Assembly: GCA_021646415.1 (NCBI GenBank)
Contig: SOEU01000020.1
Coordinates: forward strand, 1 to 57,191
From: Candidatus Brocadia sp.
Lineage (GTDB): Bacteria > Planctomycetota > Brocadiia > Brocadiales > Brocadiaceae
DNA length: 57,191 nucleotides
Direction of reading: 5' to 3'
A program made the position numbers and the translations under genes. Position 1 is the first letter of the stretch, and every line of letters begins with the position of its first letter. The notes under the pieces were generated by a model. The model made no database searches, was not told the origin of the DNA, and saw nothing but the letters and a program-made list of their open reading frames with translations. Shown here in pieces: positions 21,312 to 42,907 of the stretch.

Positions 21312-22568
21312 TCAGTCCTTAACCTGATCAAAGTACCATTTTTTTGTCAGCATATTGTAGGAGATAAGGCAGGTGAGATTGGTATTGGTTATTATGCAAT
21401 ATCGTTTCTTTAACACACCCTCAATGGTTTGATCCAGCCATTCGTTTACGACTTCTTTCACCTGAAAAAGTCTGCCGTGCAGTTTAAAGCTATAGGGAAT
21501 TACGTAATTTATTGTCAGATCATTGACGGGTACCCATATGGAGGACTTCACCAGATGAACGATGGTAAATATTGATGAAAAACACCAAAGGATGATACAG
21601 GCGATGTAAAAGCATATCGAGATAATAGCAAGGTATTGTCCTTCAAATAAACCCACCATTTGAATCGTGCTGTCGGCATATAAACCCAGGGCAAAGACAA
21701 TCTCCCAGTATCCTATGGTAAACGAAAGACCCTCATCACTGTAAATTAACTTTCTCAAGGTAAGAATAATCAAGAACGGCATCCACCACAGCCCAAAAGA
21801 CCAAAATAACAGAGAAATCCCTTTTAAAAATGAGAGAAAATCTACAAAAGGTCCACCTGCTACTTGTATGTGCTGGTACAAAGCCGCACCCGTAATTGCC
21901 GTTATGGCTGCTGCCCCAATGTTCATCCAGTAAGGCGAGAGAACGTTATTACTGTCAAACCGGTAAAATACCAATCTCAAGACGATGAGCGCCATAAATA
22001 CAAGATATAAACTCGCACCTATAGACCATAGGGCAAACGAGAATAATTGAAGAAAGATTACATGTGTTATTGCACGTTCTGCAACAATAACTCCCAGCAA
22101 GGCCGTAGATTGGGTGCCCACGGTAGCAAAGAACCATCCGCCGTGCAAGACATCTTCGATCTTTCTATCGGCAGATTTTTTATGTAAAAACAGGATGCTA
22201 AATGAGGAAAGTGATGTTCCCAGCCAGAGGCCTGTGGCCACATACCAGCATATAGTGGCCGTTGTGTAGAGATGAAATACCCTGGAAAAACAAATACCAA
22301 TAAAATTTACACTTCCTACAATGGTAAAGAAATAGAGGGTTTTCTCCGGATTGAGTATTTCCTCCAAAGAGTCTTTATAGAATAATACCGTCTGCACTGC
22401 CTTAAAAACAACCACAGAGAAGAGTATGGCTAAACTTGCTGAAAAAAAGTAAGGGGCAATTACCTCATAGCCATACATGTGAGATATGGATGCAATCATA
22501 ATCGTGGCCATGACGATAGTAAACCAACGGGTATTTAATGAATAGGTTGCAATCTTTAATCTGCTCAT
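21312..22568 (-). CDS. SLAC1/TehA-family anion channel (TDT family)
   Basis: A 418-residue membrane protein with about ten helices in the TehA/SLAC1 pattern (C4-dicarboxylate/tellurite family). Family elements are GGWFFATVGTQSTALLGVIV (about 143-162), SPYWMNIGAAAITAITGAAL and WSFGLWWMPFLIIL. An extra C-terminal cytoplasmic segment of about 70 residues (from FKLHGRLFQVKEVVNEW) is present in some homologues. Members pass small anions such as nitrate, chloride, sulfite or organic acids. Beside a NarK operon, nitrate or nitrite is a reasonable guess, not shown. A bidirectional hairpin at 22730-22771 separates it from narK. Confidence 0.75.
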   Translation of the reverse strand: MSRLKIATYSLNTRWFTIVMATIMIASISHMYGYEVIAPYFFSASLAILFSVVVFKAVQTVLFYKDSLEEILNPEKTLYFFTIVGSVNFIGICFSRVFHLYTTATICWYVATGLWLGTSLSSFSILFLHKKSADRKIEDVLHGGWFFATVGTQSTALLGVIVAERAITHVIFLQLFSFALWSIGASLYLVFMALIVLRLVFYRFDSNNVLSPYWMNIGAAAITAITGAALYQHIQVAGGPFVDFLSFLKGISLLFWSFGLWWMPFLIILTLRKLIYSDEGLSFTIGYWEIVFALGLYADSTIQMVGLFEGQYLAIISICFYIACIILWCFSSIFTIVHLVKSSIWVPVNDLTINYVIPYSFKLHGRLFQVKEVVNEWLDQTIEGVLKKRYCIITNTNLTCLISYNMLTKKWYFDQVKD

Positions 22569-23021: not shown

Positions 23022-24236
23022 CTATGCAACATTCGCTACTTTTTTATGCATCTTTGTTATCGTTTTTTCTTCCATAAACGAGAGGCATATCAGACATATA
23101 AGGGATACGAAGATAAATCCTAAAGAATAATTATTTGTATAATCCCTGATTGTACCCAATATAATGGGAAGAAAGAAACCACCAAGACCACCCGCAGCAC
23201 CTACCATTCCGCCAACAGCGCCTGTGTCCTTCGAGAAATACTCTGCTACAAGCTTAAACACAACACCATTACCTATGCCCAGACAAATACCCATCAAATA
23301 AAAGACCGTAAGTGAAGTTATTAACGATACATTCAGGTTCAGGAATATCAATATGCTGAGGATCGCCACTGAAAGGGCAATTAAAATACGCCTTCCGGGT
23401 ATGCGGTCACCAAGATATCCGCCGAGAATACGGGAAAAAGTTGTAGCGAATACAAATATTGACGTAAAACTGCCTGCCTTTACCGGTGTTAATTTATAAA
23501 AGTCCCGAAAGTAAGACGGCAGCCATAACGAGAAGGTTACAAAAAACCCAAAGGTCATGAAGTAAAACAGGCAAAAGACCCAGATTAAATGAGAGGACTT
23601 ATATAACTTCAGTTTATCACTGAAGGTGGGGGGCTTTACATTGGCTGGTTTCGGGGCATCAGCAGAGAAAAACCAGTAAACAAAGGCCATGATAAGCAGT
23701 GGTACTGAATAGATCATAAATACCTTGTGCCATCCGAGAGATTCTGCAAGGAATGGCGCTCCGAACGTGGCAACGGCTGATCCTATATTTCCCACACCAT
23801 AAATTCCTAATGCCAACCCCTGCTTCTCTTTTGGATACCATTGTGAAACCTGTGGAATGCCAATGGCGAATGATGTACCTACCATACCGAAAAAGAACCC
23901 ACAGATGAGTAAAAAGCCGTAACTCTGCGCAAAACCTGCGATAAACATAGGGAAAAAGCCAAATAAGAGCAGGACACTGAAAACCCGCCTGCCACCAAAT
24001 TTGTCTGTCAAAACGCCAATGGGCACCCTGGCAATGGAGCCAAGCAATACAGGTGTTGCGAGTAATAATCCCACGGCTGTGGAAGATAAGTTAAACTCGA
24101 CCTTCAGGTATGCAGCTAAAGGAGAAAAGAGTGCCCAACCGGCAAAACATATGGCAAATGCTAAGGTTGCAAGTATCAGCACCTTGGTATTTCCCTGGGG
24201 TGATTGTACCGAAGATGTTTGTACTGATGAGTTCAT
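23022..24236 (-). CDS. narK: Nitrate/nitrite transporter, NarK (NNP, MFS)
   Basis: A 404-residue 12-helix major facilitator protein. I use the ATG at 24236 (MNSSVQTSS) because AGGAGAT precedes it. Family evidence: GWALFSPLAAYLKVEFNLSS in helix 1, RVPIGVLTDKFGGRR in the helix 2-3 loop, the nitrate signature region GLALGIYGVGNIGSAVATFG, and a second glycine-rich signature GGMVGAAGGLGGFFLP in helix 11. It exchanges or imports nitrate/nitrite across the cytoplasmic membrane. It is the last gene of a four-gene minus-strand unit (response regulator, heme-Cache protein, PAS protein, narK), which suggests control by nitrogen oxyanions or redox state. Confidence 0.92.
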   Translation of the reverse strand: MNSSVQTSSVQSPQGNTKVLILATLAFAICFAGWALFSPLAAYLKVEFNLSSTAVGLLLATPVLLGSIARVPIGVLTDKFGGRRVFSVLLLFGFFPMFIAGFAQSYGFLLICGFFFGMVGTSFAIGIPQVSQWYPKEKQGLALGIYGVGNIGSAVATFGAPFLAESLGWHKVFMIYSVPLLIMAFVYWFFSADAPKPANVKPPTFSDKLKLYKSSHLIWVFCLFYFMTFGFFVTFSLWLPSYFRDFYKLTPVKAGSFTSIFVFATTFSRILGGYLGDRIPGRRILIALSVAILSILIFLNLNVSLITSLTVFYLMGICLGIGNGVVFKLVAEYFSKDTGAVGGMVGAAGGLGGFFLPIILGTIRDYTNNYSLGFIFVSLICLICLSFMEEKTITKMHKKVANVA

Positions 24237-24270
24237 AAAAATAGATCTCCTAAAAATCTTAAATTTGATG

Positions 24271-24663
24271 TTATGAAGGAAGCAGTGATTGTATAGGCTC
24301 AAATTCACTCTTTATCTTGATAGGGCATTTGTAGAGACCCTCTGTGATTAGTGAACTCGTTTGCTTTATAAAAAACAATCTGCCATTCCTCGTCTTCATC
24401 AGGGTAAAAAAGCCATTCACTTGTCCATCTCTAAAAAGCATAGACAATGTCTTTTCGTGGTCAAAAGGGTGTGCGTACAGTTCGTTGATTTTTTTCCCGA
24501 TTACATCATCAGATGACGCAAAACCAAAAAGCTTTGCACCTGCGGTATTGATATGCGTGATGACGCCATCATAGGAAGGCTCATACTCATACCAGCCCTT
24601 TGCATCTTGCACATTAAGAAACAGCTTAGACTCATCTTTTGTTGACAAAATGGTATTATTCAT
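24271..24663 (-). CDS. Stand-alone PAS domain protein
   Basis: A 130-residue protein starting at MNNTILSTKDESKLF behind AAGGAGAT. One PAS fold covers almost the whole length: GWYEYEPSYDGVITHINTAG, AKLFGFASSDDVIGKKINEL and FFTLMKTRNGRLFFIK. There is no kinase, cyclase or DNA-binding domain. It lies 29 bases after the heme-Cache gene and 34 bases before narK, so it is probably made with them. A lone PAS protein needs a partner; the neighbouring sensor or the response regulator are candidates. Ligand is unknown; I see no heme-binding CxxCH here. Confidence 0.8.
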   Translation of the reverse strand: MNNTILSTKDESKLFLNVQDAKGWYEYEPSYDGVITHINTAGAKLFGFASSDDVIGKKINELYAHPFDHEKTLSMLFRDGQVNGFFTLMKTRNGRLFFIKQTSSLITEGLYKCPIKIKSEFEPIQSLLPS

Positions 24664-24692
24664 GCATATCTCCTTATTCGCAATTCTTTGTT

Positions 24693-26114
24693 TTAAGGTT
24701 TTAATTCCCACGTTGCTACAGTTTTTTCTGGTGATTGTTTTATATGAGTTTTTACGATCTCCTGATCCACACTCTCTTTATTAATCGTATTTTCAGATTT
24801 CAAAATGGGAAACTGCCCCTTGAATTTAGAAATATTACTCTTGATAAAATCCTCATCTCTCCGTGTCACAATCGAACCAAACACATCTAAGGGATTATGT
24901 ACTTTGTATTTCTGTTCCCGCAGATAACCGCGCTCTTTTCTCAATTCGTAACCATCCAGGATGGCTATTACAAATCCAACCACAATGATACTTGTGACTC
25001 CCAGTAAAGCCTTCTTTGGTAAAGATAATTTTCTTAGCATATATCCTGTACTTAACTTCCTGTACATGAGTATTGCCATAACGAACGCCGGAATAATTAT
25101 CACTACCATGAGAGACTTTACCATTGAATTAATGTTGTTTACGGTACCAAGTGCCTCATCTGCATCGATTTCAACAATTAATCCCATATTCAAATCTTTA
25201 AGCCAGCTCCATGCGCCAACGACTTTTAACCCGTCATAATCCATATACCCTTCCAGGTCATAACCACTTCTTTTTTCTGTAATGCATCTTTTTACTCCTT
25301 TTGTCAGCATATTGGTATCCGGGTCTACGACCTTATGACATGTCCTGCAAGTTTCACCATTGTTTTTTATATGGTCTGAAAATCTTGATTGAGTAACCAT
25401 AATGCCGTCTTTATTTACCAGATAAGCCTCCCCTGTTTTTCCTAATAAAACATTTCTCATGCTCTTAGTCAGCAGGGAGGTATCCATCCACAGTAAAACA
25501 GCGCCGATTACATCATGATTTTCACCCTTAATAGGATAAGACATAAACAGGGAAGGTGAGTCATCCCCTTTCCCATCACTTGCATCATTGAGAGAATAAT
25601 GAATTACATCGGAGGTGTACGTTTTACCATCGTATAAGGTCTCATGAACATTCCTGAAAGGTTTTTCTTTCATAATATTCATGCCTACCATGGATTTTTC
25701 AGTATCAGTTGTCAGTTGGATTGTTCCTGTCGCATCACAAATTACTATCCCTTTATAACCATAATCTGCCTTCATGCATTCCAGCTGCATCTTTAATCTA
25801 AGATATTCATGTTCGTTTTTTCCATTCACCAGACTCAAAAAATCTTTATCGTCGTGGATAAGTAATTCACTTTGGATAGTGTCTGAAACACTCCTCGCGT
25901 GCGATTTCCTTTCCTCCCACAGCAGTGTAAGGAGGTCTTTTTGTTTGTTTACGATTCCCCAAAGGTTCCTTTGCACCCCTTGTTTCAGCTCGGTGCTTGC
26001 CTTTGGAAAGGCAATTAATCGAAACAGAACAAGGGGAAACAACCCAAAAAGTACAAATGCAATAATGACGATTACTATGCGTTCCTTAAATATTCTTCCT
26101 ACCATCTTTCCCAT
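24693..26114 (-). CDS. Double-Cache membrane protein with periplasmic heme-c motif
   Basis: A 473-residue membrane protein. Helix 1 spans about 12-32, a double-Cache sensor domain about 45-335, helix 2 about 333-350 and helix 3 about 369-386, followed by a C-terminal tail of about 85 residues. The second Cache module reads GKTGEAYLVNKDGIMVTQSR and is then interrupted by TCRTCH (Cys256, Cys259, His260), a heme-c attachment site on the outer face. The same Cache region of the kinase at 42907-40421 lacks this insert. No histidine kinase, HAMP, methyl-acceptor or cyclase domain is present, so it is a sensor without a recognisable output. It lies 17 bases after the response regulator gene. An AGAGGTG ribosome binding site precedes the ATG. 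Confidence 0.8.
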   Translation of the reverse strand: MGKMVGRIFKERIVIVIIAFVLFGLFPLVLFRLIAFPKASTELKQGVQRNLWGIVNKQKDLLTLLWEERKSHARSVSDTIQSELLIHDDKDFLSLVNGKNEHEYLRLKMQLECMKADYGYKGIVICDATGTIQLTTDTEKSMVGMNIMKEKPFRNVHETLYDGKTYTSDVIHYSLNDASDGKGDDSPSLFMSYPIKGENHDVIGAVLLWMDTSLLTKSMRNVLLGKTGEAYLVNKDGIMVTQSRFSDHIKNNGETCRTCHKVVDPDTNMLTKGVKRCITEKRSGYDLEGYMDYDGLKVVGAWSWLKDLNMGLIVEIDADEALGTVNNINSMVKSLMVVIIIPAFVMAILMYRKLSTGYMLRKLSLPKKALLGVTSIIVVGFVIAILDGYELRKERGYLREQKYKVHNPLDVFGSIVTRRDEDFIKSNISKFKGQFPILKSENTINKESVDQEIVKTHIKQSPEKTVATWELKP

Positions 26115-26131
26115 CTTTCACCTCTTGTGAG

Positions 26132-26527
26132 CTAAATGTCAGAGTTATGTAAATTATTGTCCTTAAACTTGGAAAATTCATTAAGACATATTTCAATATC
26201 ATCAACACTAAAAGGTTTTGTAATGACCTTTTTTGCGCCTTTCCTGATCGCCTCGTGCACAACGTCTTCACCTGTATAGGCAGTGATAATCACGATATGA
26301 GAACTGAATCGTATGCCTTGCAGTTGATCCAGTAATTCGATACCATCCATACCTGGCATCTGTACATCCAGCAAGATAACCGAATACCTTCTCCTTTTAA
26401 TCTCTTCCAGGGCCTCTAGGCCATTGTTCACTGCCTTTGTCTCATATCCAAGGTCAGTTAAGGAATTTGATAATACCTTTCGATATCCTTCCTCATCATC
26501 AACGATCAGTACCCTTTTTGTTATCAT
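26132..26527 (-). CDS. Single-domain response regulator (CheY-like)
   Basis: A 131-residue receiver domain: MITKRVLIVDDEEGY with the acidic pair, phospho-acceptor Asp54 (ILLDVQMPGMDG), Thr82 (IITAY) and Lys104 (VITKP). There is no DNA-binding or enzymatic output domain. It is closely related in style to the receiver of the NtrC at 40311-38914 (both VVDDE/IVDDE-GYRKVL). It heads the heme-Cache/PAS/narK unit. Its kinase is not in this operon and could be encoded elsewhere, possibly by the double-Cache kinase at 40421. Confidence 0.9.
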   Translation of the reverse strand: MITKRVLIVDDEEGYRKVLSNSLTDLGYETKAVNNGLEALEEIKRRRYSVILLDVQMPGMDGIELLDQLQGIRFSSHIVIITAYTGEDVVHEAIRKGAKKVITKPFSVDDIEICLNEFSKFKDNNLHNSDI

Positions 26528-26947
26528 CTTTTATAATCCTTAATCTCTTCTGAAATCACGAATTCTGTGTTTATAGTTTGCAACCAATGTGCCTATAAAA
26601 ACAAAAGGACGTCTGGGTTGCTCCAAGCGTATTTATTTCAATGACTTATAAAAGATAAAAATTATTTCTAAAATTTTTTTACAAATTTAACTGTAAACAA
26701 TTCGTTTCATATCCAATTCTCAATAATAGTCATAAGTATTTTGAGTGAAGTAATATAGAAACTAATAACAAAAGTTTAATAAGTGGAAACAATTTGGTTG
26801 CAGTTCAAGATCAAATCCATGCCTTTTAAGGGCATCAAAAAACATAAAAATTGTTATTTTTTTGCGTTAAGAAAACAGAAGAGGAACATCTGCCAAGGTT
26901 GATGAAATACGACGAGCAAGAGAAGATTTTTGGGGAGGGCGGAACTG
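26528..26947. other. Upstream region of the sensor-narK operon
   Basis: About 420 AT-rich bases lie between the response regulator start and the nucleotidyltransferase remnant. It should hold the operon promoter. I looked for a sigma-54 type GG-N10-GC element and found none convincing. Confidence 0.35.
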
Positions 26948-27074: not shown

Positions 27075-27740
27075 TTATAATTCTCCATGTTCAAGGAAGC
27101 TGTAATAACCTTTGTGGTTAAAAATAATATGATCGAGTAACCTGATACCGAGGGTTTCACCAGCGGATTTGAGTTGTTCGGTAATTTCTTTGTCTTCCAT
27201 ACTGGGCGTTAAGTCCCCGGCCGGGTGGTTATGGGCTACGATGATGGCCGATGCCCTGTCTGTGATTGGATCAGCATACACCTCTCTGGGATGCACCTGG
27301 GTTTTATTCACTAAACCGACAGATACGATCCGGCTTGCAATTACCTCATTCGCCCCGTTTATGGATATACAGATGAAATGTTCCTGCTTTCGGTCGGCAT
27401 AGTAACGGATCAGTGGAAGCACATCTGCCGATAAAGAAATTTTAAGACCTTCGGGACGGATGCGGCGGCGGGCAAATTCAAGGGCAGCGGCAATGAGCGT
27501 GGCCTTTGCCAGGCCAACGCCCTCAATTTTCTGTAATTCCTCAAGACTCACACTCCCTTTTCCACCATCCAGGGATTTCAATATCTTTCCTGCAATGGTC
27601 ATCACATCATGGCCTTTTGTCCCGCTTCCCAAAAGGATGGCCAGCAATTCAAGATCAGATAATGCCTCTGCTCCCTTTTGCCGGAGCTTTTCTCTCGGAC
27701 GCTCGCATTCGGGTAAATTTCTAATTGTATTCTTTTTCAT
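27075..27740 (-). CDS. radC: RadC-family JAMM/MPN protein
   Basis: A 221-residue RadC family protein. An N-terminal helix-hairpin-helix-type region (EALSDLELLAILLGSGTKG, IEGVGLAKATLIAAALE) leads into the MPN/JAMM domain with the metal-binding signature AHNHPAGDLTPSMEDKEITE. The start at 27740 (MKKNTIRNLP) lies 4 bases after the hsdR stop; an alternative ATG at 27773 would overlap hsdR. RadC is often carried near restriction and toxin-antitoxin modules, and its role in repair is unproven. Here it is directly coupled to the restriction operon. The motif residues are intact. Confidence 0.9.
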   Translation of the reverse strand: MKKNTIRNLPECERPREKLRQKGAEALSDLELLAILLGSGTKGHDVMTIAGKILKSLDGGKGSVSLEELQKIEGVGLAKATLIAAALEFARRRIRPEGLKISLSADVLPLIRYYADRKQEHFICISINGANEVIASRIVSVGLVNKTQVHPREVYADPITDRASAIIVAHNHPAGDLTPSMEDKEITEQLKSAGETLGIRLLDHIIFNHKGYYSFLEHGEL

Positions 27741-27744
27741 GTCT

Positions 27745-30665
27745 TCACGCAGACTTTGCACGCTGAAGTCCATAATAAATCACCGTCAGCGCCATCATGT
27801 CGAATATCGCCCCAGGGTCAATATGCTTGGGATCTGCAAGCTCCTCATACCGGCTTCTTCCTTCGTAGGAATCCTGTATTGAATGATTCACCTGTCCGGC
27901 ATAGGTATTTTCTAAATAAAATACATCATCTTTGTGTATCCCGATAGTTGTCTGAATCTGCTCATCGTGCATTTTTTCCTCTGTCACTTCCTTTATGTAT
28001 AACGCCTCTTCATCCGAAATTTGAAATTTCTGGCGAATTTCACCAATCATATCCTGGACAGAGACCTTTTTGGGCGGTGGCCCCCCGCTGCTCTTACGGC
28101 CATTCTTGAGTTTTACTTCACCGGGGATAGATACTTCTCCTTTATATTTAACGCTGGCCTTCACAACGCTCGTCTTGCGTATCTGTTTCATCAGATCAGA
28201 GACGGAACCCTGTTTGATCAATTGCGGGCCCACATATTCAGCAAAAGCGGCAAATATACCAATGTATTCAGGATATTGAAAGAAACACGACAGGAAATGA
28301 TAACTCTTTACCAACCGTGCCATCAGATAGACAAATTTCTTGCGGTCGTCAGCGGCCTGAATCCGTTCCTGGAACCTCGTTCGAAGGGCGTTAACGGTAA
28401 ATTGCAACGCAGCATCATTGTTTCCGGCAATAAGCTGGACGACGTTCCCGGCATCAGCCTGTTTGAATACCCCTTGCGCAATAATCTCCTGATAATATTT
28501 GATGCATTGCTCTTTATCAGGCTCACTGCTGTCAAACGGGATACCCTTCCGGTATTTGCCGAAGGCCTTTAAAATAGCAGGTGCGTTGTTCGTAAAATCC
28601 ACAACAACAACGGTATCTTTGCCATCATGGCACCGGTTCAGCCTCGATACCGTTTGTACAGCATTCCGGTCAACAACCGCCTTGTCAAGAAACATACCTG
28701 CCAAAAGGGGCTGATCAAAACCTGTTTGAAACTTGCTTGCAACAACCATGAACCGGTAGTCATTGCCTTCAAAACGGTCTTCAATAAGTTCTCCGGGCCT
28801 AAGCCCATTGACTGCGAATTCTGTTATCAACTCATTCGTCTCCGGATGAACGAAATCCGAGAAGGCATACAGGACATTGAAATCACAGCCCGGCCTCTCC
28901 CTGAGTTTGTCCTTGAGAATCTGAAAATACCTGAGCCCGGCAAGCCGCGAGGTCGCAACAATCATCGCCTTTGCCCGTCCACCGATGAGCGGCTCGATCT
29001 TTTCCTCAAAGATGCGGAGCATTACCTCAGCCTTGTACTGAATCAGTCCTTCATCCTGAAAGGCAACGTTTTTTAATGCCTTGCTGACCACGCCCTTAGG
29101 ATAGACCTTTTCTTCCTCTGTGCCTGGAATAATCGGGCAATGCAGGTTGTAGAGTGTCTTGTATGATATGATCCCGGTGGCAACGTCGACGATATACCCT
29201 TCAGCAATCGCCTCTGCCTCGGAATAAGTATCGAAGGGATCTCCAAATAACTGTACTGTTGCCGGCGACGGTGTTGCAGTAAAGGCAACGAAGAGCTGAT
29301 TGCCCTCATGTGCCCGTATAATCTTTGCGATTTCTTCCTCAATATCTTCTTCAGCTTCGGGCAGGTCTCCGTCCGGTTCTTCCGGTTTCCGGAAAGGCAC
29401 CCGGATAGCAACCCCCATCTTGCCTTCCTGAGAGCGGTGTGCCTCGTCAATCAGGAAAGCCACACGCAATTTCTTCAAATCAGGGTCGCCTTCAATTTCG
29501 CCCAGTATCCATTCAAACTTCTGCAGGGTACTTACGACGATTGACTGGCCTCTCTTGAGAAACTCCTGCAGATTTTTTGCCTTCTTTGCATATCCAACAA
29601 CTTCCCTCAAATGGCTGAAATTCTCAAAATCGTCCCGGATGTTCTTATCCAGCGCCTTGCGGTCTGTGAGCACGAAAATCATATCCAGCACCTTCTCGTT
29701 TGTGCCGGGCTTATACAGACTATGCAGGCGATCGGCAAACCAGCAGATGGAGAGGGTCTTGCCCGATCCCGCAGAATGGTTGATAAGGTATTTCTTTCCC
29801 AACGCCCCGGTTGATGCAAAGTGAGAGAGCACATCCTGTGCTACATTTTGTACCATGCGCGACTGATGGTAACGAGGAAAAATCGTAAATGCAAGACGTT
29901 CAGGCTTGTCTTCCGCGGCCTCACGCTTTGGGACATAGACCAGGAAGAAGGATAACGCCTCCAGGATGGAATCCTTTGAAAGGGCATCGCGATAGAGGAA
30001 TTCGACAGGATATTCCTTTTCATTATCCGCCTTATTCGTCAATCCAGAATTGTGCCAGTGAAAGCCTTTCTCGCTGTGCGGGTCGGTTGCAACCATAACG
30101 TCAGAGGTATCCGCTGCAATATGGATAAAGGGGAGCTGAAAGATTCTGTCGCTGTGGTCTCTTTTGGCATATTGCCTGACGGCGTCATGGACGGTCTGAT
30201 TCTTCTCGTGCTTGAGTTCCATAGTTATGATGGGCAGACCATTCAGGAAAAAGACAAAATCAGGCCGCTTGCCACCTCTGATGATCAGTTCGGGCTTTAT
30301 CGCAATCCGGTTTTGCTCGTAGTGAAAGTTTGCGACGCTCTCGCTTGAGCGGGGTTTTGGGTAGTAGAGTTTGAACTCCAGTCCCCGCACCTTCAGGCCG
30401 TGGCGAATGATCGTCCACAAAGGCGCGACACGGAGTTCATCTTTCAACGCCCTGAATATTCATCCCGTGCATCCGTTCCGTAATCGCGCTCCAGGGATTC
30501 AAGGGTCTCCTTCTGTGTTGCTGTAATAAAGGCAATCAGGTGATCCTCAGCAAAATAGTATTCCGTGTCTGTGATCTCATCCTGTTCCAGCACGGCGTAC
30601 TTGTGTTCGCGTATGAGGTATTCGAAGATGTGTCGTTGGAACTTCTTTTCCGGTCCTTCAAACAT
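27745..30665 (-). pseudogene. hsdR: Type I restriction enzyme R subunit, one frameshift
   Basis: Two open frames make one full-length HsdR of about 970 residues. The first (30665-30444) gives the N-terminus MFEGPEKKFQRHIFEYLIRE to YGTDARDE. The second (from about 30460) continues FRALKDELRVAPLWTIIRHG. The join needs one extra T in TATTC (30455-30461 region), i.e. an apparent single-base loss. Motifs are otherwise intact: nuclease RPDFVFF...MELKHEKN (PD-ExK type), Walker A HSAGSGKT, helicase DEAHRSQEG and FTATPSP. It would cut and translocate DNA with HsdM/HsdS. It overlaps the small gene upstream by 8 bases. Either a real inactivating mutation or a sequencing error. Confidence 0.9.
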
Positions 30666-30855
30666 GATGGATCAGCTTTTCCTGTCTATCCTCATTCTGT
30701 TCAACAAATATTTTTACCACATGCCCGTTTTCGTAATAAACCAGTGGAGTATACGTTTGTTTGGCTATTTCCCTTGCCCTTTTTGCCGCCCTCAGCAACG
30801 CTGCTTCAACATTCGCAAGGTCTTTGTCATGTATCTGTATCTTTTTTTCATTCAT
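30658..30855 (-). CDS. Small antitoxin-like protein beside zeta-kinase remnant
   Basis: A 65-residue protein, behind AAGGAGAG: NVEAALLRAAKRAREIAKQT, then TPLVYYENGHVVKIFVEQN. The pattern (helical AA-R-A-A stretch, then a TPLV-hydrophobic/ENG-VV beta end) belongs to a widespread family of small proteins found next to zeta-like P-loop kinases. Its start overlaps the stop of the kinase remnant (ATGA) and its end overlaps hsdR, so translation is coupled on both sides. It appears intact while its partner is not. The antitoxin role is inferred from context. Confidence 0.65.
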   Translation of the reverse strand: MNEKKIQIHDKDLANVEAALLRAAKRAREIAKQTYTPLVYYENGHVVKIFVEQNEDRQEKLIHHV

Positions 30856-31368
30856 CTCTTCTCTCCTTCATCAAGAAGTTTTGATGTCCTGCCTGAGTTG
30901 TTGTAAAGAATCCAGGCGTCTACCAACTGCTTGTAAATGTGTTGAAAATTAGTAACTATTCAGCGTATTTTCGTTCACAATCACTACGAATGAACAAAAT
31001 ATTGATTATGTAATCCCGAAGGGATGTCATTATTATAGCATATCGTTATGCAAGTATGGTTAACCCCGTAGGGGTGACATGGTATCATTATTTTCTTGAT
31101 ATTTCACCCCTACGGGGTTGAATATTGTGGTGCGTTTTTTTCTATAATCATATCATCCCTTCGGGATTTTCCCGTCTGCCCGTTTTCCCTATTGGCTCCT
31201 AACTATTCTGAGAAAATATTCTCTGTCACCGTCAGTTTCGCTGATTTGCCATTCATCATTAACGAAAATAGGACAGCCTGCCTCATTGGGCAAAAACTCT
31301 TTGGCGAACGTTGTCTTGCCTGCCCCGTTAGGCCCCGCAATAATAACAATCTTCTTTTCTTTCACCAT
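30852..31368 (-). pseudogene. Zeta-toxin-like kinase, N- and C-terminal remnants
   Basis: Behind an AAGGA site, an ATG at 31368 opens [20 protein letters not shown] followed by [13 protein letters not shown], the Walker A region of zeta-like kinases, but the frame ends at 31189 after 59 residues. At 30947-30852 the C-terminus of the same family is recognisable (NFQHIYKQLVDAWILYNNSG). It ends in a TGA that overlaps the next start. The middle of the gene, about 240 bases, is filled by nested palindromes (31012-31168). The start overlaps the 3' end of hsdS. Enzyme activity is impossible in this form. Confidence 0.65.
31012..31168. repeat. Nested palindromic repeats (BIME-like)
   Basis: The outer arms AATCCCGAAGGGATG (31012-31026) and CATCCCTTCGGGATT (31154-31168) are perfect inverted copies, and each is itself near-palindromic. 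Inside, AACCCCGTAGGGGTGA (31062-31077) and TCACCCCTACGGGGTT (31104-31119) form a second inverted pair, again self-palindromic. The block sits where the middle of the kinase gene should be. Confidence 0.8.
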
Positions 31369-32691
31369 GTTGATCCTTTAAATCGTCTTCGGTAACCCGC
31401 CTTTTGCCGGTTACACATTCGTGGATAAGGGATTTGCGGTATTGCTGTAATGTCATAATCTGAGTCTCAATATTCTCCTTAAGCTTTTTAAAATCTGTAT
31501 TTTTTTCATCAAGATATTCACATATCTTATGTTGTTCTTTGGTTGGGGGAAGAGGCAACACAAAGGCATGAATCTCTCGAATGTTAAGTCCTTGCCGTGA
31601 TGCTCCACGAAATCCAGCAAAAATCTGTCTCTGTCCAGCATCAGAAGATATGAAATAAAATAGAAATTTGAAGAATACCTTCTTTATCGGTCTTATAATG
31701 CAGACATGCTGATTAACATTAGCTTCGCCAAAGCCATCACTGACATAGTGACAACGGCCAAGAGATGCGCCGGTAATATTAAGAAGAACATCTCCTGGAT
31801 AAACTTGTGTATTGGACATTGCTTCATGCTGTTCTTCTGTAATGTAAGCAATATCGTCGAGGCGTAAACCATCGAAATGAATATTCTGACTTCTGAACAA
31901 AGGTATTCCCTCGTCAACATAGACAGTTGCACCCCCCTCTGGAGTAATGCCACTGCCTATTTTCGTGGTTACATCCTTTAACCGATCCACTCTCCAAGGT
32001 CTTGGAATCTGCCCGATAAAACCTGCCCCGGAATCTTTCAATTCAACTGAATCATCTAGCCCGCGGGTGACGGCTTTGTGGATAATGGACTTCCGCAAGG
32101 CATCCAGCAATTCAAGCTGACGTCGCTTTGCCCCGATCGCCGCATCTATTGCCGCACAGGTCTCGTCGAGATAAGCGGCAATCCGGCACTGTTCGGATTT
32201 TGGTGGTAAATGAATTCTTGTATAATTAAGAAACCTTGAAGAGACGCGTTTCTGCCCCGCAGCACCTATCATATTTGTCTCTGCATAATCTCTGTAAACT
32301 GGATTGTATGTGTAGTAATAAAGAAATTTACCTTCAACCTTAGGTCCTGGGCGAAGGACATGGTATTCGGTACTGCCAAAAGCGTATTTCGTTGGCAATT
32401 TTCGACATAGGCCCCTTTGCCGTTCTCCATACAAGGTGTGATCTTAGCAAATAACACATCACCGACTTCAAAGTTGGTCAGTCCATTCGTTATAAGATCG
32501 TATTCTTCAGTGGTGCTTGTATCTATGTATCCCTTTTCAGAGACGGCCTCCATGGGTACGACTGTACATAATTCAGTTGGATCGGGTGCGCCATTGGAAA
32601 AACCAGGTGATAATTGTGCAGCATCCTTGATTCGATTGGGTTGCCATTCATCAGGAATATAACTAAGCCAAGACTCTGTTGTTTTTTGCAT
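31328..32691 (-). pseudogene. hsdS: Type I restriction specificity subunit, one frameshift
   Basis: Two frames together give a complete HsdS of about 450 residues. The N-terminal piece (32691 to about 32400) starts MQKTTESWLSYIPDEW and reads to ENGKGAYVEN. The second frame resumes KLPTKYAFGSTEYHV and runs to the end at 31328. One extra A in the GAAAATTG tract (near 32398-32403) restores the frame. Both target recognition domains are present, each followed by the conserved helical repeat (LDALRKSIIHKAVTRGL and LQQYRKSLIHECVTGK). It would set the DNA target for HsdM/HsdR. It overlaps the zeta-kinase remnant at its 3' end. Confidence 0.88.
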
Positions 32692-32713
32692 ACTTAGGTA
32701 CTTCCAAGCTCTG

Positions 32714-32791
32714 TTAAAATTCGGTCAGTTTTTTTTCCAGTTGCCAGAACTCATTTGACAACTCATTCGCCGGTTTATGCGGCTGGTATCA
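32714..32791 (-). pseudogene. Duplicate 3' end of an hsdM gene
   Basis: The minus strand reads YQPHKPANELSNEFWQLEKK and LTEF-stop. The intact hsdM ends in the similar YEPPKPADEILNEFWKLEKE. So a diverged second copy of the last ~25 codons of an hsdM lies directly upstream of hsdS, the position where an hsdM normally ends. It suggests an older hsdM-hsdS junction from which the rest was lost or displaced. Confidence 0.65.
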
Positions 32792-33264
32792 TACCTTCAC
32801 ATCAGCTGTGTTCTTTAGCCGCATGGGAATCCAATAATCTTGTTGCTTCATAATTTTGGTTCTTTCTCAAATGCTTGTCATGGTTCGACAAGCTCACCAC
32901 GACAAAGCTCACCACGACAAAGCTCACCACGACAAGGCTCCGACAGGCTCAGCCTGACAAGTTCTGCCTGACGATCTCAACCTGACAACTTGCAATACCC
33001 GTCATCTTGAGCCCTTCGATGAACTCCTGACTGGTTTGTCAAAGCATGATTATCATCCTGAACCTGCCATGGTTCGACAGGCGTTCGATTGAACTCACGC
33101 CGAAGGCTCACCATGACAGGGGACATTGTCACCGAAGCCTGTCAAAACACAACTTTTGTCCTGAGCCTGCAAAACACAACTGTTATCCTGAGCCTGTCAA
33201 AACACAACTGTCATCCTGAGCCTGCAAAACACAACTGTCATCCTGAGCCTGCAAAACACAACTG
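32792..33264. repeat. Repeat-filled spacer between hsdS and GIY-YIG gene
   Basis: No real gene. It contains copies of a 'ttcgacaagctcacc / cctgagcctgtcgaagg' repeat family in both orientations: three copies of cacgacaaagctcac-type units at about 32888-32935, and from about 33138 to 33290 five to six tandem 27-29-base units ending in acaactgtcatcctgagcctg. The plus-strand open frame across it encodes only the repeat (CHPEPVEG-like text). Confidence 0.75.
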
Positions 33265-33663
33265 TCATCCTGAGCCTGTCGAAGGAGGACTGGCATCGGA
33301 GTCCCCACTATGACTCCCCTTGACATCCCGAACCTTTGGAGTAAGTTTAGTCGAACGATCATTTGAACTGCTTGTCGAATTGCCGCTTTTAGATAATTTC
33401 ACCAAACCTTCAAAATCCCTGGCGATTAATGCCTCTTTCTTCCTCCTCGTCCAGCCTTTTATCTGCTTCTCCCTCACGATTGCATCCATAACATTGGTAA
33501 ATTCTTCAACACGTACCAATTTCACAGGCCTTTTATCATGGGTATAACACCCTTTAATGAGACCCTCCTGATGCTCATAAAGTCGTCTTTCTATGTTGTT
33601 GGTTACACCCGTATAATAACTACCATCAGAGCATTGTAAGATATAAGTATAGTAGCTTTTCAT
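33265..33663 (-). CDS. GIY-YIG domain endonuclease-like protein
   Basis: A 132-residue protein starting MKSYYTYILQCSDGSYYTGV. The GIY-YIG fold of UvrC-like nucleases is complete in the first 90 residues (TNNIERRLYEHQEG, THDKRPVKLVRVEEF, EKQIKGWTRRKKEALI). The last 40 residues (SSSNDRSTKLTP... to PPSTGSG) are low-complexity and encoded by the adjoining repeat array, so the natural C-terminus has been extended into repeat DNA. This YhbQ-like class of small proteins is common, mobile and of uncertain function. It sits inside the hsdM-hsdS gap. Confidence 0.8.
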   Translation of the reverse strand: MKSYYTYILQCSDGSYYTGVTNNIERRLYEHQEGLIKGCYTHDKRPVKLVRVEEFTNVMDAIVREKQIKGWTRRKKEALIARDFEGLVKLSKSGNSTSSSNDRSTKLTPKVRDVKGSHSGDSDASPPSTGSG

Positions 33664-34107
33664 AAGTTTCATAAATAGCGTTTGTCATGGTTCGACAAGC
33701 TCACCACGACAAGCTCACCACGACAAGCTCACCACGACAAGCTCACCACGACAAGCTCACCACGACAAGCTCACCACGACAAGGCTTCGATAGACGTTCG
33801 GCTGAGCTCATGCCGAAGGCTCAGCCTGACAATTTCACATTGACAGGGACATTGTCACCCTGAGCTTGTCGAAGGATGACCGGCACTCAGGATGACAGTT
33901 TTACGATACCTGGACATGATGACAGGTTTACGATGGCATCCTTTGTCACACTACAGTAAACTACTCATCGGAAAGTGTCCAACTATTATTGACACAGAGG
34001 GCCTTCGGCGTGAGCTCTGTCGAACACTTGCCGAGTTGTCACCCTGAGTTTGTCGAAGGGTGACATGGAATTAAGTTGTCCAGTTTGAACGAAAACAAGC
34101 TCATGTT
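33664..34107. repeat. 14-base tandem array and dispersed repeats before hsdM end
   Basis: Six exact head-to-tail copies of GACAAGCTCACCAC (33694-33777) and a partial seventh. Beyond it (33785-34090) come degenerate copies of the same family, including tcaccctgagcttgtcgaagg forms at 33855 and 34039 in the opposite orientation. No gene is supported here. No unique spacers separate the units, so it is not a CRISPR array. Confidence 0.85.
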
Positions 34108-36167
34108 TCATTTCAATTTCATCAACACTTCCTCAGCTTCTTTCTCCAATTTCCAAAACTCATTTAAAATCTCATCCGCCGGTTTGGGCGGCTCGTAGCG
34201 ATAGAAATACTTGTTCGGCAGAATCTCATATCCAAGCTGGGGGCTGTCCTGCCATCGGATAATCTGTTTGCCGATTTCACGTTTCAGGAATTCCTCAATA
34301 TCCTCGCCGTACTGAATGTACTCGTAATCTTCCACATAATGGCGGTGGGTGAATTCGGCTGAGACTTCAAGGGAATTGATAAATAATTTAATCGCCTTGC
34401 TCTTTTCAGTGGCAGTCTTAATATCAGATGCCAAGGCATTGATCTCGGTTGAAAATGCCTCTTTTACTTTTTTTTCAAAAAGCTTCACAAAATCGGAATC
34501 CGGAGAAAGTGTAAATGCAATCCCATGCTCTGAATTTCCGTATTTCAGATGTATGCGAAACCCCAGGTCGCCTGCATAAAATTCCTGTTCTTTCTTTATA
34601 TTGGCAGCCGTAAAGGTCTTTGTATACGGTTCGGTGATGTATGCGGGCTGATCATTTTCGTCGGTCTGCCAGAAGACAACGTTTACCTTGTGATAGGCAA
34701 AATCCTTTGTATTGAATATCTTTACACACTCATCCTGGCATCCCTTTTTCCAGCCGTTGCAGTAGCGTTCTTCAATCCATTGCCTGTGGTGGTCGAGGAT
34801 CCGGTTTCGCTTATTTCCGAAGGATTTCGGTTCTTTTTCATATTGCTGCCGCGCATCTATAATCATCACCCGTCCTTTATGAGAAGGAGGCTTATTGTTC
34901 GTCAGGAGCCAGACGTAGGTGAAAATACCGGTGTTGTAGAAAAGCTGGTCGGGCAGCATTACAATGGCGTCCAGCCAGTCATTTTCCAATATCCAGCGGC
35001 GGATTTCGCTCTCGCCTGAGCCGCAGTCGCCGTTGCTGAGCGGCGATCCATTGAAAATAATGGCAATACGGCTACCACCCTGATCCACTGGTTTCATCTT
35101 TGCCAGCATCGTTTGGAGAAACAGAAGCGCCCCATCATTGGTACGGGGCATCCCGGCCGCATAGCGTGTGGACTGGAACTCCTCGCCTCTGTCTCATATC
35201 CGTCCTTGCCTCCCCAGGTGACGCCGAACGGTGGATTACTGAGCATGTAATCAAACCGGTGGTTCTGGCCTGCGAGCTGGTCACCAGGCTCACGGTTTTG
35301 CTTTGAATGTGGGATGAGCGAATTGCCGTAACAAATCTCTGCCTGTCTGTCATCCTTGATCAGCATATCCGCCTTGCAGATGGCATAGTTGGCAGGCTGA
35401 AGCTCGTGTCCGTGCAAAGTGACAAACCGCTCCACATCCTCTCTCGCTTTATCGGTTCTTGCCTTATCCAGAAGGTGTTCCTTTGCAACAGAGAGCATAC
35501 CTCCCGTCCCGCAGGCGGGATCATAAATAGAAATATGCTTCGTGGGGGCAGGGATATCAAGCAATTCCACCATGAGGCGAATGACCTCCCGTGGCGTGAA
35601 ATGCTCTCCCGCCTCTTCGCCGCTCTGTTCTGAAAACCGGCGTAAAAGTTCTTCATAGATATATCCCATTTCAAGATTTGAGAGATGTTCCGGTCCCAAT
35701 GGTTCAGTGGCGTATTGACTGAGAATGGGAGAAAGCCTGGCGTTCTTCACCATGCGCCCGATCACGGCGCGATAGTCAAAATGATCGATAATGTCCTGGA
35801 TGTTATCGGAAAAGCCGTTGATGTAATCACGGAAGTTTTTCTCCATCAAGGTTGGGTCTTCCTTGCATATACCCTGCAATGTCCAATTGGTTTTATTCGA
35901 GAATGGAATTTCTTTGGGATTGAGTTCAAGTTCCTTGACCAGTTTCTCAAGTTTACTTTCAGTAATATCAGGTCTTTTCTTTCGAATCTCCTCAGCCTTC
36001 TTTTTCCGCCAGTCAATCAGGACACATTCCAGCCGCCGTATGACAATAATGGGCAAGATAACGCTCTGGTATTCGTAGGCCTTAAATTTACCTCGCAGCC
36101 GCTCGGCAGATTTCCAGATTTCATTGGCGAGGTTGTTTAATTTTGATTTGTTCAGTACCGTTGTCAC
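34108..36167 (-). pseudogene. hsdM: Type I methyltransferase M subunit, one frameshift
   Basis: Two frames give one HsdM of about 690 residues. The first (GTG start at 36167) runs from MTTVLNKSKLNNLANEIWKS through the AdoMet-binding YDPACGTGGM and catalytic SNPPFG to WGGKDGYETEA. The second frame continues EEFQSTRYAAGMPRTNDG and covers the remaining C-terminal half. The break near 35185-35190 is explained by loss of one base, most simply one G from GCGGAGGAG. All methyltransferase motifs are intact. It would methylate adenine with HsdS. This is the first gene of the minus-strand restriction operon. Confidence 0.9.
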
Positions 36168-36913
36168 AGAATAGTGTCTTTACGTTTATGCACCTTATAT
36201 TGAATAATTTTGATTAATGACTCTCTCCTTACCTCCCCACATTCCATATTCCACATAATACTGAAAATATATTTAAAGTTACAAGTGATAAGTTTCAAGC
36301 CATGAGCAGTTTCTGGTCTGATTTTACTAGGATTACACCGTTTTGTCCTATTTGTTGCCCTTCTTAGAGGTATTACCTTTTTCCTTAAAGCCCTGCTGTA
36401 CCTGTAAATTCATATTATCTAATTCATCATTCATTTGAAAATAGGTATTACCTATTTCCCTTTTTGTCTTTTGCCATTGTGCGTTCCGACCTCTGAAATT
36501 GGCTTTTTGCAGCTTGCTCATGATTGATTTTAAGGTCGTTGCGATCAATCTCTACGTCGTTGTTTGGATTTTGACGTTCAGGATTGGGTTGCAGGGATTA
36601 TGTGAAAACCGGCAGCTATAAAATGTCGGTCAAAGGCCGCGACTTTAATGCACCTTTATATCTTCTCAGGAAGCAAAAAAATTATTTCTGACATTTTATG
36701 CCATACAATAATTCATCAATTATTTCATTATTCGTATGACCTATATCTACTGGGGGCAGATGAAAAAAAGGATCATCCTTTTTTATCGGAACTGGGTTTG
36801 TTTTTCTTTCTAGGAATTTTATGGATTTTACATCTTCTTTTTTTGCTTTACTGTACTCATTTTTTATATTTACATAATTACAAAACATTTGTCAATGGAA
36901 ATTACTGGTAAAT
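36168..36913. other. Region between hsdM and the lipoprotein gene
   Basis: About 745 AT-rich bases, apart from one weak minus-strand open frame (36521-36348) listed separately. The open frames on both strands of 36648-36911 have no ribosome binding sites or recognisable sequence. Upstream signals for hsdM should lie in 36168-36350. Confidence 0.35.
36348..36521 (-). CDS. Possible small basic protein
   Basis: Fifty-seven codons, MSKLQKANFRGRNAQWQKTK to KEKGNTSKKGNK, basic and rich in Asn/Gln, largely helical in character. There is no clear ribosome binding site and I know no family for it. It could be a real small gene or chance in AT-rich DNA. Low confidence. Confidence 0.25.
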   Translation of the reverse strand: MSKLQKANFRGRNAQWQKTKREIGNTYFQMNDELDNMNLQVQQGFKEKGNTSKKGNK

Positions 36914-37183: not shown

Positions 37184-37231
37184 CAGAAATGTTGGGTTTC
37201 GTACCTCAACTCAACCAATGCTATCCAGTAT

Positions 37232-37471: not shown

Positions 37472-37550
37472 AAAGAGAGGCTTTACAAAATGGATTGTTT
37501 AAAGTCGGACATAACACAAACGAGACATTTGTGTCATATTTCTGTTTCCC

Positions 37551-40420: not shown

Positions 40421-42907
40421 TTATAGTTTAATCACAGACATTTCCTGCTCTTTTTTTGATTTCAGGGGTAAAAATATCCTGAATGTTGTGCCTTTCCCAA
40501 TATCGCTGTCAACCTCAATACTACCGTCATGCATTTTTACTATTCCATAACTAATACTCAAACCCAGGCCCGTCCCCTTACCGTCCTTTCTTGTAGTAAA
40601 AAAGGGATCAAAAATTTTTTTCAAAACATTTTTACTGATACCCACCCCGGTATCCTTAATAAATATTTCAACACACTCCTTATCCGGATGGAAACGGGAT
40701 CCTACTGTCAACTCACCCTTCCTAAGCACTCCGGCGTGTTCCGTATTGCCCATAAATTCTTTCATGGCAAAGACGGCATTATTGGTGATGTTAATGATAA
40801 CCTGCTCCATTTGACGGGCATCCATCATAACGTCAGGGATATTTGGGTCGAGCGTACGAACTACTTCTATCTTTTCTTTTCTGTATTGTTTTTCTACCAT
40901 ACCGAGTACATTGTCTATCAGATCGTTCACGTTTGACAGGCGCATTTCCGGCTCTTTTTGCCTTGAGAAATCCAGCAGTCCGCTAATTAAGTCCTTACAC
41001 CGCACGGACTCTTTCACAGAACCTTCTAAGTATTCATACAAATAAGTTCTGTTCTTATTAATAACAGTGTAAATTTGCGACAATTCCTGGCAGTACTTGT
41101 TTAAGTCATTAGCGATGTATGAAAGCTCCTCTGCCCATGTATCCTTTTCCAAGGTGACGTTTTCTGCGTGACCCAAACGAGAAATAAGACCATTCAGCCG
41201 CTGTGTGTTTTCAGAAATAGGGATCGAGCTTGTGAGTTTTAAGGCATTCGTGACCTTTTCGAAAATCTTTAAACTTTCCGTACTGTAAAGATAAATTACA
41301 CCGATCGGATTATTGATTTCATGGGCAATTCCAGCTACCAACTGACCAATAGATGCCAGCCTGTCGGCCTGCACAAGCTTTTGCTCAAGTCTTCTCAATT
41401 CAGTAACATCGTTGGCAGTCCCTAATATACTCAACAATTTTCCATCTTTACTCTTGATAAGAGATGTGCTCAGCAATACATTTCGGACGTTCTTTTGCTT
41501 ATCCAATACCTCAACCTCGAATATCTTCCTGAAACCATTGTGAATGATCTGATCTGCATTTTCCAGCCGCTTATCGAACAGGATGGAAATCAAAGGCTGC
41601 CCGATCAACTCCTCTTCGTGGTAACCCCATTCTTTGATCTTGGGATTGACAAAGGTAAAGTTTCCTTGAACATCAAGCGTGAATATCAGTTCGTTTGCAT
41701 ACTTTAAGATGCTTTCCAGATATTCTTTTCTTTCTTCAAGGTCGGCCTTCAGCTTCAGGAGTTTTTCACGCGCGTCTTTGATGTCATCGGTCATGTGGTT
41801 AAACGAGGTCGTTAGTTCACCAAGTTCGTCTTTCAAATTGCTTTCGACCCGGAAGTTCAGGTCACCTTCCGCAACCCTTTTCATGCCTTTGACAAGCCGT
41901 ATAATGGGAATAATGATCCCCCGGGAGACAAAAAAGGATATAAATATTACACCAACAATACATATACCCACTACAGTAATAGCCCGATACTTGAACCTGG
42001 AAATGGGGGAATATGCCTCTGATTCATCTGTTTCCACCAAAAGGACCCATTTCATCTTCTTTACATACCGTGTGGCACCGATGACGTTCCTTCCCATGTA
42101 ATTTTTATATACACCCACAATCTCTTTTCCGGAGTGAAGCGCTGCGGTCACAGGTTCGGTGTTGACTAGCTGTCGTAAAATGGCTTCTTCCTTAAATCTC
42201 GATTCGGTAATCATCAGGTGATTTTTGCTTACAATATATGCTTCGCTTGTCTTGCCCCTTCGAAGGAACATGCCCACATCTTCTTTTACACCAGCCTTTT
42301 TTCCCGTCGTAATTTCATTTAACTTGTTTGCATTGAATCGGATTACCAGCACACCGAGAAACTTTCCACTCCGTTTCTTTAGAATTGGTGTGGCAAAGGC
42401 CATTGAATACTCCCCTGTGTTTTCGTCCATATAGACATCCTTGACATAAGGACCTTCCTTGCCGTAGGTAAAATAATCTGCACCGAATTCAATCTTGCCG
42501 ATGTTGTTCTCGTTACTCGATGCCACGATAATTCCCGCAGGGTTTAAGACAAAAGTCTCGTAAAAGTCCTTATTCAGATTCGTTTTGTATATCATGTAAT
42601 CATTGAATTTTTTGACGATGTGTGTGTTCTTTGGGTTGTGGTTCAGAATTTCCAGGTGTCTTCGGATAAACTCATCAGATGCAAAAAATTGTGACGAATA
42701 TTCACCCGCATTGAGGATAGTCAGTATATGATTTTTAATTCCATCAGCAAGGAATGCCTCTTCGTTGAGGAGTTCGTTCTTGATGGTTTCCTGCGCATAC
42801 CGATAGGTAAGAATGGCAACGGTAATGATGGGCAAAATGGATAACAACAAAAACCAGCAAAGCAGTTTTCTGCCAATGCCACTAAAAAGATTAACGCCTT
42901 TTACCAT
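40421..42907 (-). CDS. Double-Cache sensor histidine kinase
   Basis: An 828-residue membrane kinase: helix 1 about 15-35, periplasmic double-Cache domain about 40-300, helix 2 about 309-328, HAMP about 329-382, coiled coil 375-400, PAS about 400-505, dimerisation domain with phospho-His529 (AGIAHEINNPIG), and ATPase with N box NITNNAVFAM, DTGVGI and GTGLGLS. About 90 extra residues lie between the H box and the X region (KDLISGLLDFSRQ), a helical insert seen in some NtrB/DctB-like kinases. Cache domains commonly bind small carboxylates or amino acids. It pairs with the NtrC-type regulator 109 bases downstream and diverges from the DASS carrier gene. Confidence 0.93.
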   Translation of the reverse strand: MVKGVNLFSGIGRKLLCWFLLLSILPIITVAILTYRYAQETIKNELLNEEAFLADGIKNHILTILNAGEYSSQFFASDEFIRRHLEILNHNPKNTHIVKKFNDYMIYKTNLNKDFYETFVLNPAGIIVASSNENNIGKIEFGADYFTYGKEGPYVKDVYMDENTGEYSMAFATPILKKRSGKFLGVLVIRFNANKLNEITTGKKAGVKEDVGMFLRRGKTSEAYIVSKNHLMITESRFKEEAILRQLVNTEPVTAALHSGKEIVGVYKNYMGRNVIGATRYVKKMKWVLLVETDESEAYSPISRFKYRAITVVGICIVGVIFISFFVSRGIIIPIIRLVKGMKRVAEGDLNFRVESNLKDELGELTTSFNHMTDDIKDAREKLLKLKADLEERKEYLESILKYANELIFTLDVQGNFTFVNPKIKEWGYHEEELIGQPLISILFDKRLENADQIIHNGFRKIFEVEVLDKQKNVRNVLLSTSLIKSKDGKLLSILGTANDVTELRRLEQKLVQADRLASIGQLVAGIAHEINNPIGVIYLYSTESLKIFEKVTNALKLTSSIPISENTQRLNGLISRLGHAENVTLEKDTWAEELSYIANDLNKYCQELSQIYTVINKNRTYLYEYLEGSVKESVRCKDLISGLLDFSRQKEPEMRLSNVNDLIDNVLGMVEKQYRKEKIEVVRTLDPNIPDVMMDARQMEQVIINITNNAVFAMKEFMGNTEHAGVLRKGELTVGSRFHPDKECVEIFIKDTGVGISKNVLKKIFDPFFTTRKDGKGTGLGLSISYGIVKMHDGSIEVDSDIGKGTTFRIFLPLKSKKEQEMSVIKL

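Follow-up and report, generated by a model that had tools for sequence, protein, structure and literature searches.

In a stretch of 57,191 nucleotides from Candidatus Brocadia sp. (contig SOEU01000020.1; the whole stretch is called the window below), we found a minus-strand operon of five genes encoding a receiver-only response regulator (RR), a double-Cache (dCache) membrane protein with a heme-c attachment motif (CxxCH), a PAS-only protein, a NarK-like transporter and a SLAC1-type anion channel. We give about even odds (roughly 0.5) to the reading that the operon is dedicated to nitrite/nitrate transport and brings along a kinase-less sensor complex of its own, the receiver of which would be served by a histidine kinase encoded in the same window, HK828, and the transcription of which would depend on an NtrC-type activator and sigma-54. 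Anammox bacteria convert ammonium and nitrite into nitrogen gas. For the control of nitrite entry and nitrate exit, they are known to carry many copies of each transporter (PMC7438415), and the locus provides named candidates for this control: a dedicated promoter and its probable activator, a probable kinase, and a sensor complex that accompanies NarK-like and FocA/HPP transporters as well as nitrite:nitrate oxidoreductase (NXR). The locus seems to be a control system for nitrite and nitrate traffic that has not been described before, and our literature searches found no described system of such composition.

The arrangement of the genes is conserved. Full-length dCache orthologues were found in 25/33 Brocadiaceae genomes, often in two copies, and among the 34 full-length Brocadiaceae loci (window included) the PAS gene comes next in 29 and a NarK-like gene is present in 33. 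Two genomes of another Brocadiales family (G353 and G381) also have RR-Cache-PAS-NarK-SLAC1 in full and share its sigma-54 site. Among the 392 genomes sampled from the phylum, full-length dCache homologues are limited to Brocadiales, none being found outside this order at E 1e-45 or better. A previous reading made from the letters alone (the sequence-only reading) had proposed a sensor whose parts are spread over separate proteins and tied to nitrate/nitrite transport. This part of it is supported, and the gene order, which holds in most of the 34 loci and in the two genomes of the other family, goes beyond chance.

The four genes named in that reading were recovered where it had placed them, close together on the minus strand, and Pfam agrees that the RR is a lone receiver and the PAS protein a lone PAS (Table 1). 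What it had missed are the SLAC1/TDT gene, which is the fifth and conserved last gene of the operon, the promoter architecture, the tail domain of the dCache protein and the sister HPP/FocA modules. Its nitrate/nitrite transporter stands with a weaker name: TIGR00886 is the best family and MFS_1 is matched, yet we call the protein NarK-like since its TIGR00886 score is under the curated cut-off of 311.7 bits. The PAS and NarK genes probably start downstream of the 5' ends of their open reading frames, because M17 is invariant and an ATG follows AGGAG. In the lone RR, the phospho-acceptor set D54, T82 and K104 is invariant in orthologues. The AlphaFold2 model of the PAS protein (pLDDT 53) was too poor to use, and a search of the PAS sequence against solved structures gave weak matches only.

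Table 1. Features of the operon, its promoter region and its candidate regulators (window positions unless a locus is named).
Feature	Position	Strand	Remark
Single-domain response regulator, receiver only	26132..26527	(-)	Pfam Response_reg 101 bits
Kinase-less dCache membrane protein P0001 with fused C-terminal tail	24693..26114	(-)	473 aa
CRTCH heme-c attachment motif, P0001 residues 256-260	25335..25349	(-)	sequence motif
Third transmembrane segment and tail, residues 357-473 of P0001	24693..25046	(-)	homologous to u162 (~135-177 aa) of HPP/FocA operons
PAS-only protein P0003	24271..24711, likely start 24663	(-)	Pfam PAS_9/PAS
NarK-like nitrate/nitrite MFS transporter	23022..24308, likely start 24236	(-)	TIGR00886 241.9 bits
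SLAC1/TDT family anion channel	21312..22568	(-)	Pfam SLAC1 128 bits vs gathering score 27.9
Sigma-54 type -24/-12 promoter AGGCACATTGGTTGC	26580..26594	(-)	[AG]GGYAY-N5-TTGC
Upstream element 1, CTGCAACCAAATTGTTTCCA	26784..26803	(-)	20 bp, recurs across genomes
Upstream element 2, palindrome GAAACGAATTGTTTACAG	26691..26708	(-)	94 bp from element 1
Conserved hairpin/inverted repeat before T-rich run	26608..26631	(-)	10 predicted pairs, 4 changed on both sides
NtrC-family sigma-54 activator P0007	38914..40311	(-)	probable activator of the operon
HK828, dCache-HAMP-PAS-histidine kinase, NtrC partner	40421..42907	(-)	candidate kinase for the lone receiver
Two-element promoter, NXR context	L120 6546-6770 and L121 6233-6456		G024/G018

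In the majority of loci that have an RR gene, the -24/-12 pattern is located some 55-71 bp before the RR start. The outer upstream element (pattern CTGCAACCRAAYTGTTTCCA) occurs as one copy per genome in 19/33 Brocadiaceae genomes, with 0 control hits, and all of its sites precede the RR operon, its Cache-NarK remnant or the NXR operon of G018/G024. The inner element is a palindrome (GAAACRAATTGTTTVCAG) about 112-116 bp upstream of the -24/-12 site; it gave 19 sites in the 33 genomes when at most one mismatch was allowed, vs 2 for the reversed control, and 17 of these 19 are at the RR operon or beside NtrC. The 94-bp spacing of the two elements, about nine helical turns, is invariant wherever both patterns match. 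The GG(-24)/GC(-12) spacing, the upstream sites, an enhancer-binding protein and an RpoN encoded in the genome are all present, and from what is known of sigma-54 biology we infer that the layout is the one expected for an NtrC-type activator that uses a pair of upstream sites. The NtrC of the window (P0007) would be the probable activator, its orthologues directly adjoining the promoter elements in G024, G018 and G025, and we hold this transcriptional layer to be quite likely. A hairpin is kept in the interval from the upstream elements to the -24/-12 site, irrespective of which gene lies upstream; a terminator/attenuator, a leader RNA and one more binding site are all conceivable roles for it. 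At another locus (L075 3672-3977, in G027), only a broken remnant is left of the RR gene 5' of Cache, and the promoter elements are retained.

The kinase HK828 carries the Cache segment GKTSEAYIVSKNHLMITESRF without CxxCH, as the sequence-only reading had noticed, and its dCache has the same GKTxEAY core as that of P0001. In the 33 genomes, RR and HK828/NtrC occur together in 17, RR only in 2, the kinase only in 6 and neither in 8 (Fisher p 0.007, uncorrected for phylogeny). In the window genome, the receiver nearest to the lone RR is that of NtrC P0007 (100.5 bits, the next one scoring 71.8), and in many other genomes the NtrC receiver is the runner-up. Because of this co-occurrence and of the closeness of the two receivers, HK828 ranks first among the candidate kinases of the lone RR, which puts a candidate name on the kinase that had been supposed to be borrowed in trans. 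In G006, G023 and G030, only a few kb lie between the HK828-NtrC pair and the operon. The two are split in the window by an island (27075-38838; type I restriction-modification, Fic, RadC) and in G030 by another, methylase-bearing insert.

P0001 itself has no recognizable output. Its sole Pfam match is a marginal dCache_1 (PF02743, 45.2 bits vs a cut-off of 45), and kinase (HisKA/HATPase), HAMP, cyclase and MCP domains are all absent from the Pfam scan, so that the description of a CRTCH-bearing dCache protein devoid of such outputs is upheld by Pfam and by the structural model. The AlphaFold2 model shows a long helix followed by two Cache modules in tandem (residues 35-328) and resembles PscC 6mni (VIA Z 17.8, rmsd 3.5 over 245) and PctD 7prq (VIA Z 18.5, rmsd 3.6 over 265); its mean pLDDT is 68.6, most of the Cache part being at 80-92 and the tail, below 50, being too poor to use. 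The Cache profile matched nothing significantly among the sequences of solved structures. The modelled fold is that of DctB/KinD/PctA-type dCache receptors, which have a kinase or MCP output attached and in which no heme is known. The orthologues of the P0001 type (n=34) are only 450-477 aa long, and a truncated or recently lost kinase was ruled out by the existence of full-length, kinase-less orthologues in two families and the lack of homologues at E 1e-45 or better outside Brocadiales among the 392 genomes sampled.

Transmembrane segments of P0001 are predicted near 13-31, 331-349 and 369-387. Heme c attachment takes place in the periplasm, and because the CxxCH-bearing Cache must be there, the C-terminal tail is expected on the same side of the membrane and the short basic loop (about 350-368) on the cytoplasmic side; the protein would therefore have almost no cytoplasmic part. 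The tail is homologous to u162, a protein of the HPP/FocA operons (hhalign probability 95%, E 2.6e-8), the BLAST matches of which are otherwise limited to P0001 orthologues among the loci searched. The conserved tail is a domain in its own right, common to another protein. An Hpt domain was ruled out on sight for u162 and the tail, u162 being a single-transmembrane coiled-coil protein instead.

The heme-c motif has its own history. CxxCH is kept in 26/36 orthologues, among them every copy of the NXR-linked type and that of one outgroup genome out of two; it is absent from the distant Cache homologues examined, among them the Cache proteins of HPP/FocA operons. On the tree, five changes are needed, at least three of which are forced, a pattern that fits one gain and several losses, and the G381 outgroup orthologue (WKTSH) adds one further change beyond the tree. 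The dN/dS of P0001-type proteins is 0.08-0.18 with or without the motif. Since CxxCH was lost several times under purifying selection, heme is not essential for the core function, and an essential heme sensor in every species is ruled out. Thus, the redox, NO or nitrite sensing by heme put forward in the sequence-only reading does not hold as a core function in every species, and the conservation of CxxCH holds for the majority of orthologues only, the losses being independent. The heme site is ancestral in the NarK-type Cache protein, yet dispensable, and, judging from its repeated loss, a cofactor of this kind may serve as an optional extra. In three Cache genes (L057, L063 and L149) we observed independent point-mutation losses (CRGSY, FRTFH and WKTSH), the proteins being otherwise constrained; the losses to CRGSY and FRTFH are recent. 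H172 is kept in 26/26 heme-bearing and 4/10 heme-less orthologues; as a distal heme ligand it is only a lead, as a clade of losses confounds the comparison.

No match of P0001 to the Pfam family sCache_heme (PF11845) was found at E up to 0.01. This family (DUF3365/Tll0287; GSU0582, GSU0935) resembles P0001 by its periplasmic Cache fold, its CXXCH in a loop and the membrane anchoring of some members, and it binds NO (PMC12889525). It differs in that P0001 has a double Cache, keeps CxxCH in 26/36 sequences vs 99%, and is fused to a third transmembrane segment and a tail, not to HAMP or an output. The heme c of P0001, in a double Cache domain outside that family, thus looks like a separate acquisition by a Cache domain. 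Where CxxCH remains, sensing of NO or redox state is plausible by analogy with the related sCache_heme family, whose domains are NO binders when joined to signalling parts (PMC12889525).

The window's own genome holds a second cluster, Cache2-PAS2-NarK2, without RR and SLAC1, directly downstream of the NXR locus, which is ordered EB_dh, Fer4, NarJ-like and molybdopterin subunit, followed by u161 and two Na/H exchangers. The two-element sigma-54 promoter was seen before an NXR operon of G024; in G018 it precedes the beginning of a similar gene, within which the contig ends. The promoter that normally serves the NarK operon has changed its operon in these genomes.

The same parts recur in other fusions. 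Cache domains about 35% identical to those of P0001 were found in 762-aa Cache-HAMP-PASx3 proteins, likewise kinase-less, encoded in HPP-Cache/PAS-u162-RR-FocA operons that often stand beside a further kinase/NtrC pair. In G018, G019, G020 and G024, this protein is split into a Cache protein and two PAS proteins. Since u162 and the P0001 tail are homologous, and the nearest relatives of the lone PAS are the PAS domains of kinase-less Cache-PAS proteins, NarK-type and HPP/FocA-type operons are made up of shared parts. Each type is represented twice in the window's genome, and the two types are adjacent in G006 and G012. Where they adjoin in some Brocadia, either TetR and MscS genes (L074 7053-18000) or NXR and Na/H exchanger genes (L070 3-12399) stand next to them, forming a nitrite/nitrate island. 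The second HPP-Cache/PAS-u162-FocA module of the window's own genome is at L160 7600-12328 (G000:C38), and in the same genome L159 7478-11274 (G000:C7) holds a kinase-less Cache-HAMP-PAS protein whose neighbours are a TauE/SafE-type anion exporter and a gene resembling Ser/Thr kinases.

The FocA-type module was matched by gene order, not by accession, to Kuenenia kuste3051-3055. All of these genes go down when NO replaces nitrite (36-fold for FocA, 3-10-fold for the others), kuste3052 and kuste3054 were detected as proteins, and the genes between FocA and HPP were listed as unknown or hypothetical (PMC6423088). The focA_2/HPP pair was reported to respond to nitrite (PMC7438415). These studies describe the HPP/FocA transporters, not the adjoining sensor parts (PMC6423088, PMC7438415).

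Two known systems offer partial parallels. In Staphylococcus (NreABC with NarT), a lone soluble sensor likewise acts together with a kinase and a regulator that are separate proteins, and nitrate reductase and transporter genes are under their control (PMC8139620); that system differs by having a GAF nitrate receptor (NreA) and an Fe-S kinase (NreB), where the present operon has a PAS protein, a membrane Cache protein, a sigma-54 promoter and no kinase. GlnK/PII with AmtB shares the conservation of a sensor gene beside a transporter gene, GlnK blocking the channel (PMC7438415); here there is no PII protein, and gating would be a proposal. The anammox HPP-Cache-PAS-u162-(RR)-FocA operons are closer in content, with homologous Cache, PAS and tail proteins, often a receiver, and nitrite transporters; they differ by the fusion of Cache to HAMP and three PAS (or its division into Cache and two PAS), the separate tail and the lack of CxxCH.

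We propose that HK828, through its periplasmic Cache and cytoplasmic PAS, would phosphorylate NtrC, and that phospho-NtrC would bind the two upstream elements and switch on the sigma-54 promoter of the operon. The Cache protein and the soluble PAS protein may jointly stand in for one Cache-HAMP-PAS receptor, and this complex would sense a periplasmic signal, in most species via heme c with NO or redox state as a plausible cue, and adjust the NarK/SLAC1 transporters. By phosphorylating the lone receiver, HK828 would tie the sensor complex to the transcriptional switch. That Cache, PAS and receiver act as one complex is somewhat favoured. We lean slightly against a direct action of this complex on the transporters, which is argued from gene neighbourhood; whether kinase-less, transporter-linked sensors act on transport itself now becomes testable. 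Still more tentatively, the locus may represent an as yet undescribed class, in anammox bacteria, of kinase-less transmembrane sensor complexes (Cache, PAS and u162-type tail, usually with a receiver) that, in varied fusions, accompany nitrite/nitrate transporters from several unrelated families (NarK, SLAC1, FocA and HPP) and gate anion transport directly on periplasmic NO, nitrite or redox state, heme c being gained or lost.

Several observations speak against the proposed operon-borne sensor, besides the doubt on direct action. In 6 genomes HK828/NtrC is present and RR is absent; the reverse, an RR with no HK828, was seen in G002 and G028 (91% and 83% complete). Three Brocadia genomes keep Cache-NarK-SLAC1 without PAS or RR, and the NXR-linked Cache-PAS-NarK copy has neither RR nor such a promoter; PAS and RR are thus not always needed. 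Kuenenia narK genes were unresponsive to nitrite vs ammonium limitation (PMC7438415), the kuste/KSMBR1 numbers are tied to our loci by gene order, without accession match, and interaction, phosphotransfer, heme and ligand are deduced from genomes.

As the main alternative, Cache, PAS and receiver could be accessories of HK828-NtrC only, the Cache protein pairing with the HK828 Cache within the membrane and adding a heme input, the receiver being a phosphate sink or feedback device and the transporters being left untouched. The likeness of the lone receiver to that of P0007, the co-occurrence with HK828/NtrC and the GKTxEAY core common to both dCaches agree with this, but Cache-NarK copies persist without RR, and also in genomes devoid of HK828/NtrC (G003, G004, G005, G007 and G010), and the Cache gene stays with a transporter gene (33/34 loci) with or without the kinase. 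Since this pairing is constant even when HK828 and RR are absent, the alternative is weakened and we consider it unlikely.

The Cache protein could also be chiefly a heme-c redox protein at the transporter or NXR complex, working in electron transfer or in NO binding or scavenging, and no signalling receptor. Such a role would suit the mono-heme CxxCH kept in all NXR-linked-type copies and the redox-like properties of stand-alone sCache_heme domains (PMC12889525); it is made improbable by the repeated loss of the motif with dN/dS remaining at 0.1-0.18, by the sister HPP/FocA-operon Cache proteins that have no motif, and by the partner genes, which are PAS and receiver. Finally, P0001 might be the relic of a histidine kinase or chemoreceptor that lost its output and is kept by linkage, as some of its distant homologues (about 35% identity) are Cache kinases about 1060 aa long. 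Against this stand full-length orthologues that lack a kinase, found in two families at 55-95% identity, a dN/dS near 0.1 and a conserved tail of independent origin, and we find the relic scarcely credible.

Among the other features of the window, the island between HK828-NtrC and the operon carries RadC, HsdR, HsdS, GIY-YIG, HsdM and Fic genes, and HsdM, which lies in two overlapping frames (34108-35151 and 35094-36167), looks frameshifted.

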